NCBI RefSeq assembly: GCF_001375595.1
Contig: NZ_CVJQ01000001.1
Coordinates: 1,612,001-1,676,000 of the forward strand
DNA: 64,000 bases
Direction of reading: 5' to 3'
Origin: Phenylobacterium immobile (ATCC 35973)
GTDB taxonomy: Bacteria; Pseudomonadota; Alphaproteobacteria; Caulobacterales; Caulobacteraceae
Below the pieces are notes generated by a model. The model worked only from the letters and a program-made list of their open reading frames with translations. It had not been told where the DNA came from and ran no database searches. The position numbers were made by a program, and so were the translations under genes. Within the stretch, counting starts at the first letter, position 1. Every line of letters starts with the position of its first letter. Shown in pieces: positions 7,614-15,010 of the stretch.

Positions 7614-9236
7614 TCACTCGGCTTCTGGCAACAGAGAAAGCCCTAGTTCTCCCAAGAAGGCGTTGTGCTTGGAAGTCGCTTCCCGGATTTGCTTTTGAAG
7701 CTGGACCAACTCGCTCTGGATGACCGACAGCTCAATTTCTTCCTCGCCCACGGCCGTTCTGATGTAACGAGAGATGTTGAGGTTGTAGTCTTCCTCAGCA
7801 ATGCGCTCCATGCTGACGCGCCTTGAATAACGGTCCTCTTCCTTGCGGAAGCGGTAGGTATCGATAATCTTGCCGATATGCTCGTCGGTGAGCTGGTTCT
7901 GCCGCTTGCTCTTCGCGAAATGCTCGGCCGCGTTGATGAAGAGCACGTCATCGGGTTTTTTGCATTTCTTCAGCACAAGGATGCAAACTGGGATGCCCGT
8001 CGAGTAGAACAGGTTCGCAGGCAAGCCGATGACTGTATCGATGTGACCGTCCTTCAGCAGCTTGGTTCGGATGCGCTCTTCCGCCCCTCCTCGGAACAAC
8101 ACCCCATGCGGCAGGATGATGGCCATCACACCCTCATCCTTCAGGTAGTGGAATCCGTGCAGGAGGAACGCGAAGTCGGCGGCAGACTTGGGCGCCAGTC
8201 CGTAATTCTTGAATCGCACATCGTCGCCCATCGCCTCAGTCGGCTCCCAGCGGAGGCTGAAGGGCGGGTTGGCCACGATCGCGTCGAAGGAGGGCTTCTT
8301 GGCGGGATTCAACTCCCGCAGGATGTCCCAGTCATTGGTTAGTGTGTCGCCATGGTAGATTTCAAATTCAGTATCTTTCACGCCGTGCAGCAGCATATTC
8401 ATGCGGGCGAGATTGTAGGTGGTGATGTTCTTTTCCTGTCCGTAAATTTTGCCGATGCCATGCGGCCCCATGCGCTTGCGCACGTTAAGCAATAGCGAGC
8501 CGGAGCCGCAGGCAAAGTCGAGAACGCTCGTCAGCCGAACCTTCTTGCCGGTGGCCGGTTCCTGGCTATCGAGCGTTACGATCCCGGAGAGAATGTCAGA
8601 CACCTGCTGAGGCGTATAAAACTCGCCCGCCTTCTTGCCGGACCCGGCGGCGAATTCGCCGATCAGGTATTCATAGGCGTCGCCCAGCGCATCGACATCG
8701 GAGGAGAAGTCCGCGAGCCCTTTGGCGATCTCTGCAATGATCGCACACAGCTTGGCATTGCGGTCCGCATAGCTCCGTCCGAGTTTATCCGAGCCGAGAT
8801 TGATCTCGGAGAAAAGGCCACTGAAGGTGCTCTGGAAGGACTCGTTCTCGATGTATTTGAAGCCCGCCTGCAGGGCGTTCAGCAGTTCGCCGTTCTGGGT
8901 GCGCGCCATATAGGCAATGCTAGTCCAGAGGTGTTCCGGCTTGATTACATAGTGCGCCTTGAGGCGCATCTGCTTTTCAAAAGCCGAAATATCATCGGGG
9001 TTCTGCGCGTACCACACCGATAGGGGCGAGCGCCCGCCATTACCGATGGCGTTGGGATCTGGGTAGTCGGACCCAAGCTCCTTCTTAGCGGCCATCTCGT
9101 AGTTGTCCGAGAGGTAGCGCAAGAACAGGAACGACAGCATGTAGTCGCGGAAGTCGTCGGCATTCATCGCCCCGCGCAGCTGGTCGGCGATGTTCCATAG
9201 CGTCTTGCCCAGCTGCTTTTGGATTTGGTCGTTCAT
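7614..9236 (-). CDS. hsdM: Type I restriction-modification methyltransferase subunit HsdM
   Basis: A 540-residue adenine methyltransferase subunit. An N-terminal helical domain (about 1-150) precedes GEFYTP at 204-209, the SAM-binding motif DFACGSGS at 240-247, and the catalytic NPPF at 323-326. With HsdS it methylates the recognition site; with HsdR it forms the restriction complex. Its ATG overlaps the end of the anticodon nuclease gene by ATGA, making it the last gene of the defence operon. In most type I loci hsdM lies before hsdS, so its position after hsdS and the nuclease is unusual. Confidence 0.95.
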   Translation of the reverse strand: MNDQIQKQLGKTLWNIADQLRGAMNADDFRDYMLSFLFLRYLSDNYEMAAKKELGSDYPDPNAIGNGGRSPLSVWYAQNPDDISAFEKQMRLKAHYVIKPEHLWTSIAYMARTQNGELLNALQAGFKYIENESFQSTFSGLFSEINLGSDKLGRSYADRNAKLCAIIAEIAKGLADFSSDVDALGDAYEYLIGEFAAGSGKKAGEFYTPQQVSDILSGIVTLDSQEPATGKKVRLTSVLDFACGSGSLLLNVRKRMGPHGIGKIYGQEKNITTYNLARMNMLLHGVKDTEFEIYHGDTLTNDWDILRELNPAKKPSFDAIVANPPFSLRWEPTEAMGDDVRFKNYGLAPKSAADFAFLLHGFHYLKDEGVMAIILPHGVLFRGGAEERIRTKLLKDGHIDTVIGLPANLFYSTGIPVCILVLKKCKKPDDVLFINAAEHFAKSKRQNQLTDEHIGKIIDTYRFRKEEDRYSRRVSMERIAEEDYNLNISRYIRTAVGEEEIELSVIQSELVQLQKQIREATSKHNAFLGELGLSLLPEAE

Positions 9237-10486
9237 TGTGCTGGTGCTTCCTGGGGCGCGGGCGCGGGCGCGGGCGCGGGCGCGGGCGCGGGCGCCGGTG
9301 CTGTGGGCTGGGCGGGAAGAATTTCTGGCAACGCGAACTCAAACCGAGCGGTGAATTCACGCAGGATGCGGCGGAACAGTGCCTTGTTGTCCTCGCCCAT
9401 TTCAGTGGGCTCATGGATGGCATAGGCCCCGTGGCTCAGCAGGTTGAGAGCCCGATTGAACAGCGCCCGATCTTCCTCGTTGTCGAGCGCCTTGAGGCAG
9501 AAGGATATGCTCGGATGCCCAAAGAAAGAGGCTGTCTTCTCCATGACGCTGCGCAAGGCATTGAAATGGAAGGTGTAAAGCTTCCCCCTGTGTGGATCGG
9601 CGGCAAGATGCAATTCGGCGAGCGTCGCCACATGGTGGAAGAAGGGCGTATCCTTGGTCGCCTGAAGCCTGTAGGCGCCGTCGCTGTTTGGGCGGTGCAG
9701 AAAATAGCGCTTGTGGGTAATCGTGGGTTCGCCCTCGGGATGCCTTCCCACTTCGTTGCACATGACGTTGAAGAACAGCGCGTGGTGCGAGGAGAAGATC
9801 ACCTTGATCGGGGCGGGCGCTCCGTCGCCGTCCTTTCGCGTAGCCGCCCGGCGTAGAAGCTTGGCCAGGTCGCAGGCTACGGAAATCGCGTTGTTGTCGT
9901 CCAGCGACGAGATCGGGTCGTCGATGTAGAGGTACTTCTTCCCCTGATAGGATTGATGGCCATCCAGCATCCGTTCGCAGATCGCCATGAAGATGCACCA
10001 GATGAAGATATTCTGCTCACCCCGTGAGACCTTGATGTTGGTTTGATTGTCCTTCCTGAAGCTCACATAATCCGGCTTGGAGATGGTCTCTGTGCCTTGT
10101 GGGACGTCCTTGTAGGTGAAGTCGAATTCGAAATCGGCGTATCGGTAAAGATACCCGGCAATCGTCTGGTCCAGCGCGAGTTCGGTCATCGCGTTGAAGA
10201 ATGATGACTTGTCGTTCAGCTTCATGTGGCGAACGCTGTCGCCCTCTAGGTCGTTTTCCCAGACGAACAGGTCCTCGGTGAAGGCATTGAAATAAAGTGT
10301 GTCGGGGGTGCCGGCCGGGTTCTTCTTCGTCTTACGTTTGCCCGCGTCCTTAAACTCCATCGACAAGCGTGTCTTGCCGGTACGATTGTAAGCGTAGACC
10401 AAGAGAAATGAAATAGCCTTCGTGGGGTTGCTCAGATCATCGCGAAGCCTGCCCACTAGAGTCTTCAGATTCTTGTAGGTACTCAT
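9233..10486 (-). CDS. PrrC-like anticodon nuclease with ABC-type ATPase domain
   Basis: A 417-residue protein inside a type I R-M operon, the setting of PrrC, which cuts tRNA when phage inhibit the restriction enzyme. ABC ATPase motifs are present: a P-loop at 32-39 (AYNRTGKT), signature VSRGEQ at 153-158, Walker B YLYIDDP at 185-191 with D-loop SSLDDNN, and switch His in SSHHA near 234. A candidate nuclease triad is Arg312-Glu316-His352, resembling the Arg-x3-Glu...His of PrrC. The P-loop lacks its first Gly and has Arg where Gly is usual. The C-terminus is an Ala-Pro tail made by a hexanucleotide repeat. It overlaps hsdS and hsdM by ATGA. The substrate tRNA is unknown. Confidence 0.7.
   Translation of the reverse strand: MSTYKNLKTLVGRLRDDLSNPTKAISFLLVYAYNRTGKTRLSMEFKDAGKRKTKKNPAGTPDTLYFNAFTEDLFVWENDLEGDSVRHMKLNDKSSFFNAMTELALDQTIAGYLYRYADFEFDFTYKDVPQGTETISKPDYVSFRKDNQTNIKVSRGEQNIFIWCIFMAICERMLDGHQSYQGKKYLYIDDPISSLDDNNAISVACDLAKLLRRAATRKDGDGAPAPIKVIFSSHHALFFNVMCNEVGRHPEGEPTITHKRYFLHRPNSDGAYRLQATKDTPFFHHVATLAELHLAADPHRGKLYTFHFNALRSVMEKTASFFGHPSISFCLKALDNEEDRALFNRALNLLSHGAYAIHEPTEMGEDNKALFRRILREFTARFEFALPEILPAQPTAPAPAPAPAPAPAPAPQEAPAQ
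9254..9295. repeat. Hexanucleotide tandem repeat, seven copies of GGGCGC
   Basis: Seven perfect 6-bp units encode an Ala-Pro tail near the C-terminus of the anticodon nuclease, ending about 18 bp from the hsdM start codon. Gain or loss of units keeps the frame and would change tail length and the spacing ahead of the hsdM translation signals. Confidence 0.9.
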
Positions 10487-14794: not shown

Positions 14795-14803
14795 CGAAAA
14801 TGC

Positions 14804-15010
14804 TCAGTTTTCTTCAATGTGAGCTGAACGGGCTGTCTTGGTCTTGGTCAAACGCCTGTCCTCGCGACGCTTCAATCGTTCGTATTCCTCAATGCTCAGC
14901 ACGACGACCACAGGGCGTCCGTGCTTTTCAACCGTCACCGGTTCTGCCAGCGCCCTGTCAAGAAGCAGCCCGAACGCGTTTTTCGCGTCCTTCGCTGACA
15001 TTGTTTTCAT
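14804..15010 (-). CDS. Phd/YefM-family antitoxin-like protein, no partner toxin
   Basis: A 68-residue protein with the Phd/YefM fold signature: MSAKDAKNAFGLLLDRALAE, then EPVTVEKHGRPVVVVLS and an EYERLKRR helix. Family members bind operator DNA through the N-terminal half and neutralise a toxin (Doc, YoeB, PIN and others) through the C-terminal tail. No toxin gene adjoins it; hsdR starts 9 bp downstream. It may act as the transcription regulator of the restriction operon, or as an antidote to an unlinked toxin. A near-perfect inverted repeat lies 19 bp upstream of its start. Confidence 0.85.
   Translation of the reverse strand: MKTMSAKDAKNAFGLLLDRALAEPVTVEKHGRPVVVVLSIEEYERLKRREDRRLTKTKTARSAHIEEN

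Follow-up and report, generated by a model that had tools for sequence, protein, structure and literature searches.

The locus examined here, in a 64,000-nucleotide stretch (hereafter the window) of the Phenylobacterium immobile (ATCC 35973) genome, is a restriction-modification (R-M) operon of type IC that encloses the gene of a PrrC-type anticodon nuclease. Five genes run in the same direction on the minus strand. The first, phd (14804..15010), encodes an orphan Phd/YefM-family protein of 68 aa (PF02604 E=4.9e-15, TIGR01552 E=1.6e-12); hsdR (11765..14794) follows with a type IC restriction subunit of 1009 aa, which matches HSDR_N, SWI2_SNF2, EcoR124_C and, above cut-off, TIGR00348. The specificity subunit gene hsdS (10483..11775; 430 aa; Methylase_S E=4e-13, PADLOC Specificity_I E=4.8e-99) precedes prrC (9233..10486; 417 aa; PADLOC PrrC E=5.1e-126, AAA_13). 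Last comes hsdM (7614..9236), for an N6-adenine methyltransferase subunit of 540 aa (TIGR00497 hsdM above cut-off, N6_Mtase E=3.2e-104).

Taken in that order the spacings are +9, -11, -4 and -4 bp (negative values being overlaps), and the open reading frame (ORF) coordinates together with the Pfam, NCBIfam and PADLOC names bear out a preliminary description that had claimed five co-oriented, tightly packed genes. The linkage of this PrrC to a type IC hsd system rests on EcoR124_C in HsdR and TIGR00497 for HsdM (Pfam, NCBIfam), EcoR124 being an enzyme that we take to be type IC. The operon is a new, phd-led variant of an already known defence system.

The nuclease and the order of its operon

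In a family alignment of 100 members, the N-terminal ATP-binding cassette (ABC)-ATPase motifs of the window PrrC are kept, namely what we take to be a Walker A variant (AYNRTGKT), an SRGEQ signature and a Walker B motif. The C-terminal catalytic triad, R312-x3-E316...H352, is kept as well (R and E in 100/100, H in 99/100) and has the Arg-x3-Glu...His form given for PrrC and RloC in the description of PMC2610378. The P-loop might be read as a sign of decay: A-Y-N-R-T-G-K-T lacks the usual glycines, and a degenerate nuclease would leave the locus a plain R-M system. An arginine at this place occurs in 74/100 members (glycine in 22/100) and is therefore a lineage trait and not damage, GKT is intact, and the catalytic residues are invariant or nearly so; a P-loop defect was rejected on this alignment, and the degenerate reading is exceedingly improbable.

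An AlphaFold2 model of the protein (30 sequences; mean predicted local distance difference test score, pLDDT, 80.4; predicted template modelling score 0.69) has 17 fold matches with E<=0.001, among them the heads of Rad50, SMC and RecN at E 1.3e-5 to 8e-4, with low TM-scores to the query of 0.24-0.33. The ATPase domain is accordingly predicted to be Rad50/SMC-head-like. A sequence search at E<=1 found no solved PrrC structure, and no HEPN structure stood among the 50 fold matches listed for the model. The 3' end of prrC holds a GCGCCC hexanucleotide repeat (9254..9296, minus strand) that codes for an Ala-Pro tail modelled at low confidence (pLDDT <50 at residues 390-403). This Ala-Pro run is longer than in any of the 23 relatives compared, and 6-bp steps in the repeat would preserve the reading frame.

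A scan of 84,980 species genomes gave 177 candidate stretches and 153 confirmed PrrC relatives, the best 80 of which were examined with hidden Markov model (HMM) searches for the five genes. HsdR matches below 150 bits were ignored for the order count, as was the HsdR match of locus L085, which is a different, downstream gene. The order hsdR-hsdS-prrC-hsdM (R-S-C-M) is complete in 68/80 loci, incomplete yet consistent in 12/80 and contradicted in 0/80. Nine of the 12 incomplete loci are cut by a contig end. In L089 and L121 hsdR is missing from the roughly 9 kb upstream, and in L085 hsdM is missing from the roughly 10 kb downstream. Some of the R-S-C-M operons are interrupted by spacers of >300 bp, 19 in all (one further entry being the 338-bp S-C gap of L085), so the compactness of the window operon is not universal in the lineage.

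The classic E. coli prr locus is ordered M-S-C-R, unlike the R-S-C-M of the window. Nine more distant loci have that order, complete in the annotated L254 and recognized in the other eight from M alone upstream, R alone downstream, or the two together; their PrrC proteins are 28-34% identical to that of the window. A maximum-likelihood tree of 99 PrrC sequences, whose bootstrap had not fully settled, places the two orders on either side of a single branch supported at 100/100; incomplete loci were labelled R-S-C-M from S-C-M, S-C or C-M adjacency. Judging by tree and neighbourhoods, PrrC falls into two deep lineages, in one of which R-S-PrrC-M is the fixed order, and prrC lies behind hsdS in both wherever S is visible. 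The contention that the order departs from M-S-C-R stands, the two forming separate clades. The order is not special to this locus, being widely conserved and normal for its lineage; a lack of conservation elsewhere, named in the preliminary description as grounds for refutation, is not what the survey found. The survey gives PrrC a simple map in which gene order tells the two deep lineages apart.

Members of the window's lineage come from alpha-, beta- and gammaproteobacteria, with a scatter of other phyla, many of these last being metagenome bins. A close hsd operon also occurs without the nuclease: G715 (HsdR 72% identical) has R-S-M with neither prrC nor phd. A second locus, L242 (HsdR 55% identical), shows R-S up to the end of its contig, also without phd. 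G715 is the one close locus at which phd-leadership of a PrrC-less type I operon could be checked.

Insertions within the order are seen on plasmids. In the copies examined from E. coli and Klebsiella quasipneumoniae S-C-M is kept, and two extra genes separate hsdS from the upstream hsdR. Two extra genes stand at this place in L252 and L285 (IncC and IncA plasmids), the L285 pair being annotated as a TrlF-family ATPase and an RNA-binding domain protein. At 11 other loci (L084, L088, L097, L099-L102, L105, L114, L127, L135) an extra gene lies between prrC and hsdM; a common N-terminal sequence assigns it to the RhuM family, and Pfam, applied to the L084 gene, agrees (PF13310 E=2e-106). The presence of RhuM alongside PrrC has been noted earlier (PMC3710099).

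The Phd leader and its inverted repeat

A Phd HMM match lies upstream of hsdR in the window and in 16/80 relatives. Among the 81 loci (the 80 plus the window), 11 lack hsdR and three lie too near a contig end, which leaves 67 testable upstream sides; phd is present, patchily, at 17 of these, window included. The 16 phd-led relatives comprise 14 alphaproteobacteria and two metagenome bins of other phyla (L061, L130). Of the 17 phd genes, those of L060, L125 and L130 are either truncated or without a normal start. At L058 a small ORF before hsdR (L058:5495-5686) joins a Phd C-terminal piece to an unrelated start.

The putative Phd operator of the window, AGCCACTATGGCC (15031..15043, 20 bp upstream of the phd start codon), is one mismatch from the 13-bp inverted repeat GGCCA-N3-TGGCC. 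Counted at <=1 mismatch within 650 bp upstream of the HsdR match, this repeat occurs in 16/17 phd loci (L060 being the exception), in 3/50 phd-less loci and in 36/1340 shuffled regions, the shuffles keeping single-base content only and the 50 phd-less loci including L085 (whose HsdR match is another gene) and L058 (with its phd fragment). The Fisher p of 1.4e-11 is an overstatement, since the loci share ancestry and are the very ones from which the motif was derived. Phylogenetically independent pairs are the fairer measure: the PrrC tree (66 rows) offers 11 of them, and the repeat goes with phd in nine, against it in none and shows no difference in two (p=0.0039).

Between the repeat and the phd start are 20-47 bp, and in 14/16 loci a TTG (TTGC in nine of them) stands 10-11 bp before the repeat, placed as a -35 box would be if the repeat filled the -35/-10 spacer. 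A sigma-70-type promoter scan around the end of hsdM, at the other side of the operon, returned nothing. Mean identity among the 14 complete Phd proteins is 80% over the first 50 alignment columns and 19% over the remainder. The association of repeat with phd, the conserved N-terminal half and the divergent tail argue for autorepression and not toxin binding; they point to a predicted DNA-binding autorepressor whose operator has been retained and whose toxin-binding tail has not. The suggestion in the preliminary description that Phd acts as a regulator gains support from this operator-like repeat common to phd-led loci.

Two other roles can be envisioned for the protein. Phd might be a direct antitoxin of PrrC, the two forming a toxin-antitoxin pair with hsdR and hsdS between them; the Phd family consists of antitoxins by origin, and PrrC is a toxin. 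The toxin-binding part of Phd in Phd-Doc is, in the description of PMC10440598, the C-terminal tail, which is the very part that has diverged between copies here, and most loci of the lineage do without Phd altogether; we consider such a pairing very unlikely. Alternatively, phd may be a passive remnant of a phd-doc module that chanced to adjoin hsdR, as its patchy distribution (12 changes on the tree), the truncated or start-less copies (L060, L125, L130) and the L058 chimaera could suggest. Its recurrence on the same side and in the same direction before hsdR in distant loci, its conserved N-terminal half and a repeat that goes with it in 9/11 independent comparisons are hard to square with passive carriage, to which we allow only a small chance.

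The phd label needs 12 changes on the PrrC tree (rows with no visible upstream side being scored as phd-less), which makes the gene an exchangeable accessory, and its lack in most relatives indicates that Phd is dispensable for the core function. As far as neighbourhoods and conservation tell, Phd is a genuine but optional member of the operon. A limited search, judged by titles, found no published description of an orphan Phd heading a type I R-M operon. Phd with its specific 13-bp repeat is a candidate transcriptional switch for PrrC systems, whose published control, in the sources as available, is silencing at the protein level.

A carrier island with its own tRNA-Leu(UAG)

Upstream of phd lies an intact tRNA-Leu(UAG) gene (15296..15380, minus strand; ARAGORN and whole-genome tRNA searches), followed by a tyrosine-recombinase-type integrase gene (15422..16720, minus strand; 432 aa; PF00589 E=6e-4, below the Pfam cut-off). 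Beyond it, the 3' part of a disrupted host tRNA-Leu(UAG) (16840..16904, plus strand) marks the right end of an island; it contains a 19-bp core, CGCACTGGATTTAGGTTCC, at 16843-16861 and adjoins tig (a gene named from its sequence). The 5' part of the host gene lies 3.8 kb left of the window (G000:C1:1608165-1608206). The two ends are 20,655 bp apart and share the core; the sequences there split the host tRNA at its anticodon loop and complete neither half, and ARAGORN calls no tRNA at either end. Within the island, a MobA/MobL relaxase-helicase (2129..5428, minus strand; PF03389 E=7.3e-67) and a VirD4/TraG-type coupling protein (5905..7488, plus strand; PF02534 E=5.1e-78) lie beyond hsdM. Its ends and gene content mark the operon, by sequence, as the cargo of a 20.7-kb mobilizable island. 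A GmrSD-like protein in the left part (L149:5766-7529, equal to G000:C1:1609766-1611529; PF03235 E=2.1e-28) may represent a second restriction system.

No intact tRNA-Leu(UAG) other than that of the island was found in the genome. RF00005 marks 42 tRNA-like places, all of which ARAGORN typed except C1:374233-374307 (the weakest match, at 34 bits, not called), and the leucine set consists of CAG, GAG twice, UAA, CAA and the single UAG at 15296-15380. Among 22 long ORFs regarded as host genes, 18 use CTA, with 34 such codons in 10,007; given the single intact gene and these codons, the island tRNA is probably needed for survival. Inside the core its sequence departs from that of the host gene, the longest stretch in common being TTTAGGT, and this divergence would spare the island copy from the integrase. 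The arrangement suggests that mobilizable defence islands, like the phages for which it has been described, make use of tRNA-dependent integration; if true, this would tie retention of the island to an essential host function.

Integrase relatives were sought among 299 genomes of the family, and the four closest (G032, 93% identity; G224 and G124, 68% each; G154, 63%) repeat the pattern, with a tRNA-Leu(UAG) right behind the integrase and another in two parts. The split parts of G032 are on different contigs, and G124 has two 5' parts. The core shared by the ends is 11 bp in G224, against 19 bp in the window island. In the G224 and G154 islands Pfam identifies relaxase and coupling-protein genes; for G124 it identifies a coupling protein. 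Eight genomes of the same genus, selected because they lack a close integrase (G103 has one 34% identical), all have an intact tRNA-Leu(UAG) by ARAGORN, in 7/8 within reach of a tig match; six of these tRNAs are 94-99% identical to the query, and two (G084, G172) are more divergent.

More distant relatives of the integrase (49-55% identical) have a variation of their own. At 16 loci (L185, L187, L188, L190, L191, L193-L196, L198, L199, L201-L203, L205, L207), a group I intron interrupts the adjoining tRNA-Leu(UAA) in its anticodon loop; RF00028 matches above the gathering score at L190 and below it at the other 15 (E 8e-9 to 5e-5), and at 12/16 the 5' part of another tRNA-Leu(UAA) lies on the opposite side. 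Such an intron would break the attachment (att) core in the spare tRNA gene and could protect that gene from the integrase; a limited search, judged by titles, found no published description of an intron-interrupted spare tRNA beside an integrase. At L186 and L189 a tRNA-Leu(CAA)-like gene (an ARAGORN call in L189 only) stands beside the integrase, with the 5' part of another tRNA-Leu(CAA) on the opposite side.

It could also be imagined that the island tRNA serves as decoy or substrate for PrrC. This was rejected as the main interpretation, as the tRNA goes with the integrase: G032, G124, G154 and G224 carry the same kind of tRNA, yet none of them is among the 28 genomes of the family sample with a PrrC match. 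A phage origin was rejected as well, neither the integrase nor PrrC having a match in 50,697 phage records (E<=1e-5). Nor do the mobility genes of the island travel with the operon as a vehicle common to its relatives. Within 10 kb or less on each side of the 80 loci (E<=1e-8), the relaxase has no match, the coupling protein two weak ones (29 and 34% identical) and the integrase one (24%). A 16.9-kb Sediminicoccus plasmid does carry S-C-M with a MobA/MobL protein and a coupling protein that are 37-40% identical to those of the window.

Proposed working and known systems

We think it probable that the whole is a type IC R-M operon with a PrrC suicide nuclease, transcribed under Phd repression and carried as cargo of a mobilizable island. 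Observed parts of this explanation are the genes and their overlaps, the intact catalytic residues, the fixed lineage order, the association of phd with the repeat, and the island ends. In the uninfected cell, by analogy with the E. coli system, the R-M complex would keep PrrC silent; a phage that blocks restriction would free it, and the freed nuclease would cut a tRNA, probably tRNA-Lys, so that translation stops and the cell dies or stalls before the phage can multiply. Silencing by R-M and release by phage anti-restriction are described for E. coli in PMC3874165, PMC3874168 and PMC3710099. Because prrC overlaps S on one side and M on the other by 4 bp each, translation of the nuclease is probably coupled to that of the proteins that would keep it silent. 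The orphan Phd most likely binds GGCCA-N3-TGGCC in its own promoter region and would repress the whole, presumably polycistronic, transcript; loss of Phd would raise expression of the operon. The earlier reading of the nuclease as a suicide back-up for blocked restriction agrees with what the available accounts give as established for type IC R-M systems with PrrC (PMC3874165, PMC3710099) and with a system, PrrC170, reported to defend and to hit tRNA-Lys (PMC11555353), and by analogy would apply here.

Several points weigh on the other side. The case for this locus rests on sequence and predicted structure, and the tRNA-Lys target is carried over from PrrC170 and E. coli PrrC by description. 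The window repeat is the weakest fit of all, with its mismatch, no TTG at the expected distance and the shortest spacing, and a sigma-70-type scan upstream of phd gave no promoter. The repeat was also counted in the loci in which the motif was discovered, and 50/67 testable loci have no Phd.

The preliminary description had taken the gene order, with regulator first and methyltransferase last, as a design for controlled establishment after transfer. On this account Phd would delay expression in a new host such that methylation precedes restriction and nuclease, like the C proteins of type II systems; the phd-repeat association and the position of the operon on a mobilizable island speak for it. 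Early protection is poorly served by hsdR first and hsdM last, and type I enzymes need M and S for cleavage in any case. The same order is found in all 80 loci as far as readable, with or without Phd, three-quarters of the testable ones having none; the island's mobility genes are not common to these loci, and the R-S-M operon of G715 exists without prrC and phd. The survey does not support such a purpose for the order, and controlled establishment through Phd is rather unlikely.

For the Phd-repressed, island-borne suicide operon, a bolder form can be envisioned, to which we give somewhat less than even credence. An orphan Phd may have been recruited repeatedly, mostly in alphaproteobacteria, to govern R-S-PrrC-M operons as their master switch; it would be a labile autorepressor, and losing it would raise restriction and suicide capacity together. 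Here the operon would ride an island that holds the cell by tRNAs twice, once through replacement of the host tRNA-Leu(UAG) by its own, such that imprecise loss would be lethal, and once through a tRNA-cutting anti-phage suicide enzyme. The regulatory leader and the tRNA-dependent carrier are the less expected parts of this locus; the order is ordinary for its lineage.

Among known elements, the island resembles Tycheposons in having a tyrosine recombinase and a tRNA at its border (PMC10872708), a likeness by description only. Closer to it are phages with tRNA-dependent lysogeny, in which, as described, an integrase recombines inside a host tRNA gene, none is rebuilt and the element supplies the same isoacceptor (PMC10865867, PMC8631192). 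Mycobacteriophages follow the same logic as the island, with a common core of about 10 bp (PMC10865867) against the 19 bp of the window island and 11 bp of G224, and Rhizobium phages use tRNA-Leu with the core CAGATTTAGGTT (PMC8631192). The window element differs from these phages in being a relaxase-bearing island. As in phd-doc toxin-antitoxin operons, a Phd-family gene comes first with a likely operator before it; unlike them, the window has an R-M system downstream and no doc beside phd, hsdR beginning 9 bp after phd and the ORF scan placing no same-strand ORF between phd and the tRNA-Leu.

RloC shares with the window PrrC an ABC-ATPase and the anticodon-nuclease triad (PMC2610378). It differs in its zinc-hook coiled-coil insert and in being rarely linked to R-M genes, whereas the window protein is so linked; no long insert is present in its 417 aa, of which the PrrC profile aligns residues 5-386, although no search aimed at a zinc hook was made. 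The E. coli prr locus (EcoprrI-PrrC), different in order as noted, is described as a type IC R-M system with an embedded prrC bearing the same nuclease triad (PMC2610378, PMC3874165).

The nearest counterpart is PrrC170 of Klebsiella quasipneumoniae, whose four genes are given as HsdR, HsdS, PrrC and HsdM, with 300 nt before hsdR (PMC11555353). Compared by description, it too is a type I R-M system with an ABC-ATPase nuclease PrrC and the four genes in the order of the window; no Phd leader is mentioned in the available part of that description. One K. quasipneumoniae plasmid encodes, in S-C-M order behind an hsdR, a PrrC that shares 48% identity with the window protein and may or may not be PrrC170. 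The published system protects against T1 and T7; overexpression of its PrrC halts growth, and sequencing of tRNA implicated tRNA-Lys as the target (PMC11555353). On that account a system described in the R-S-PrrC-M order, and its action, are already in print.

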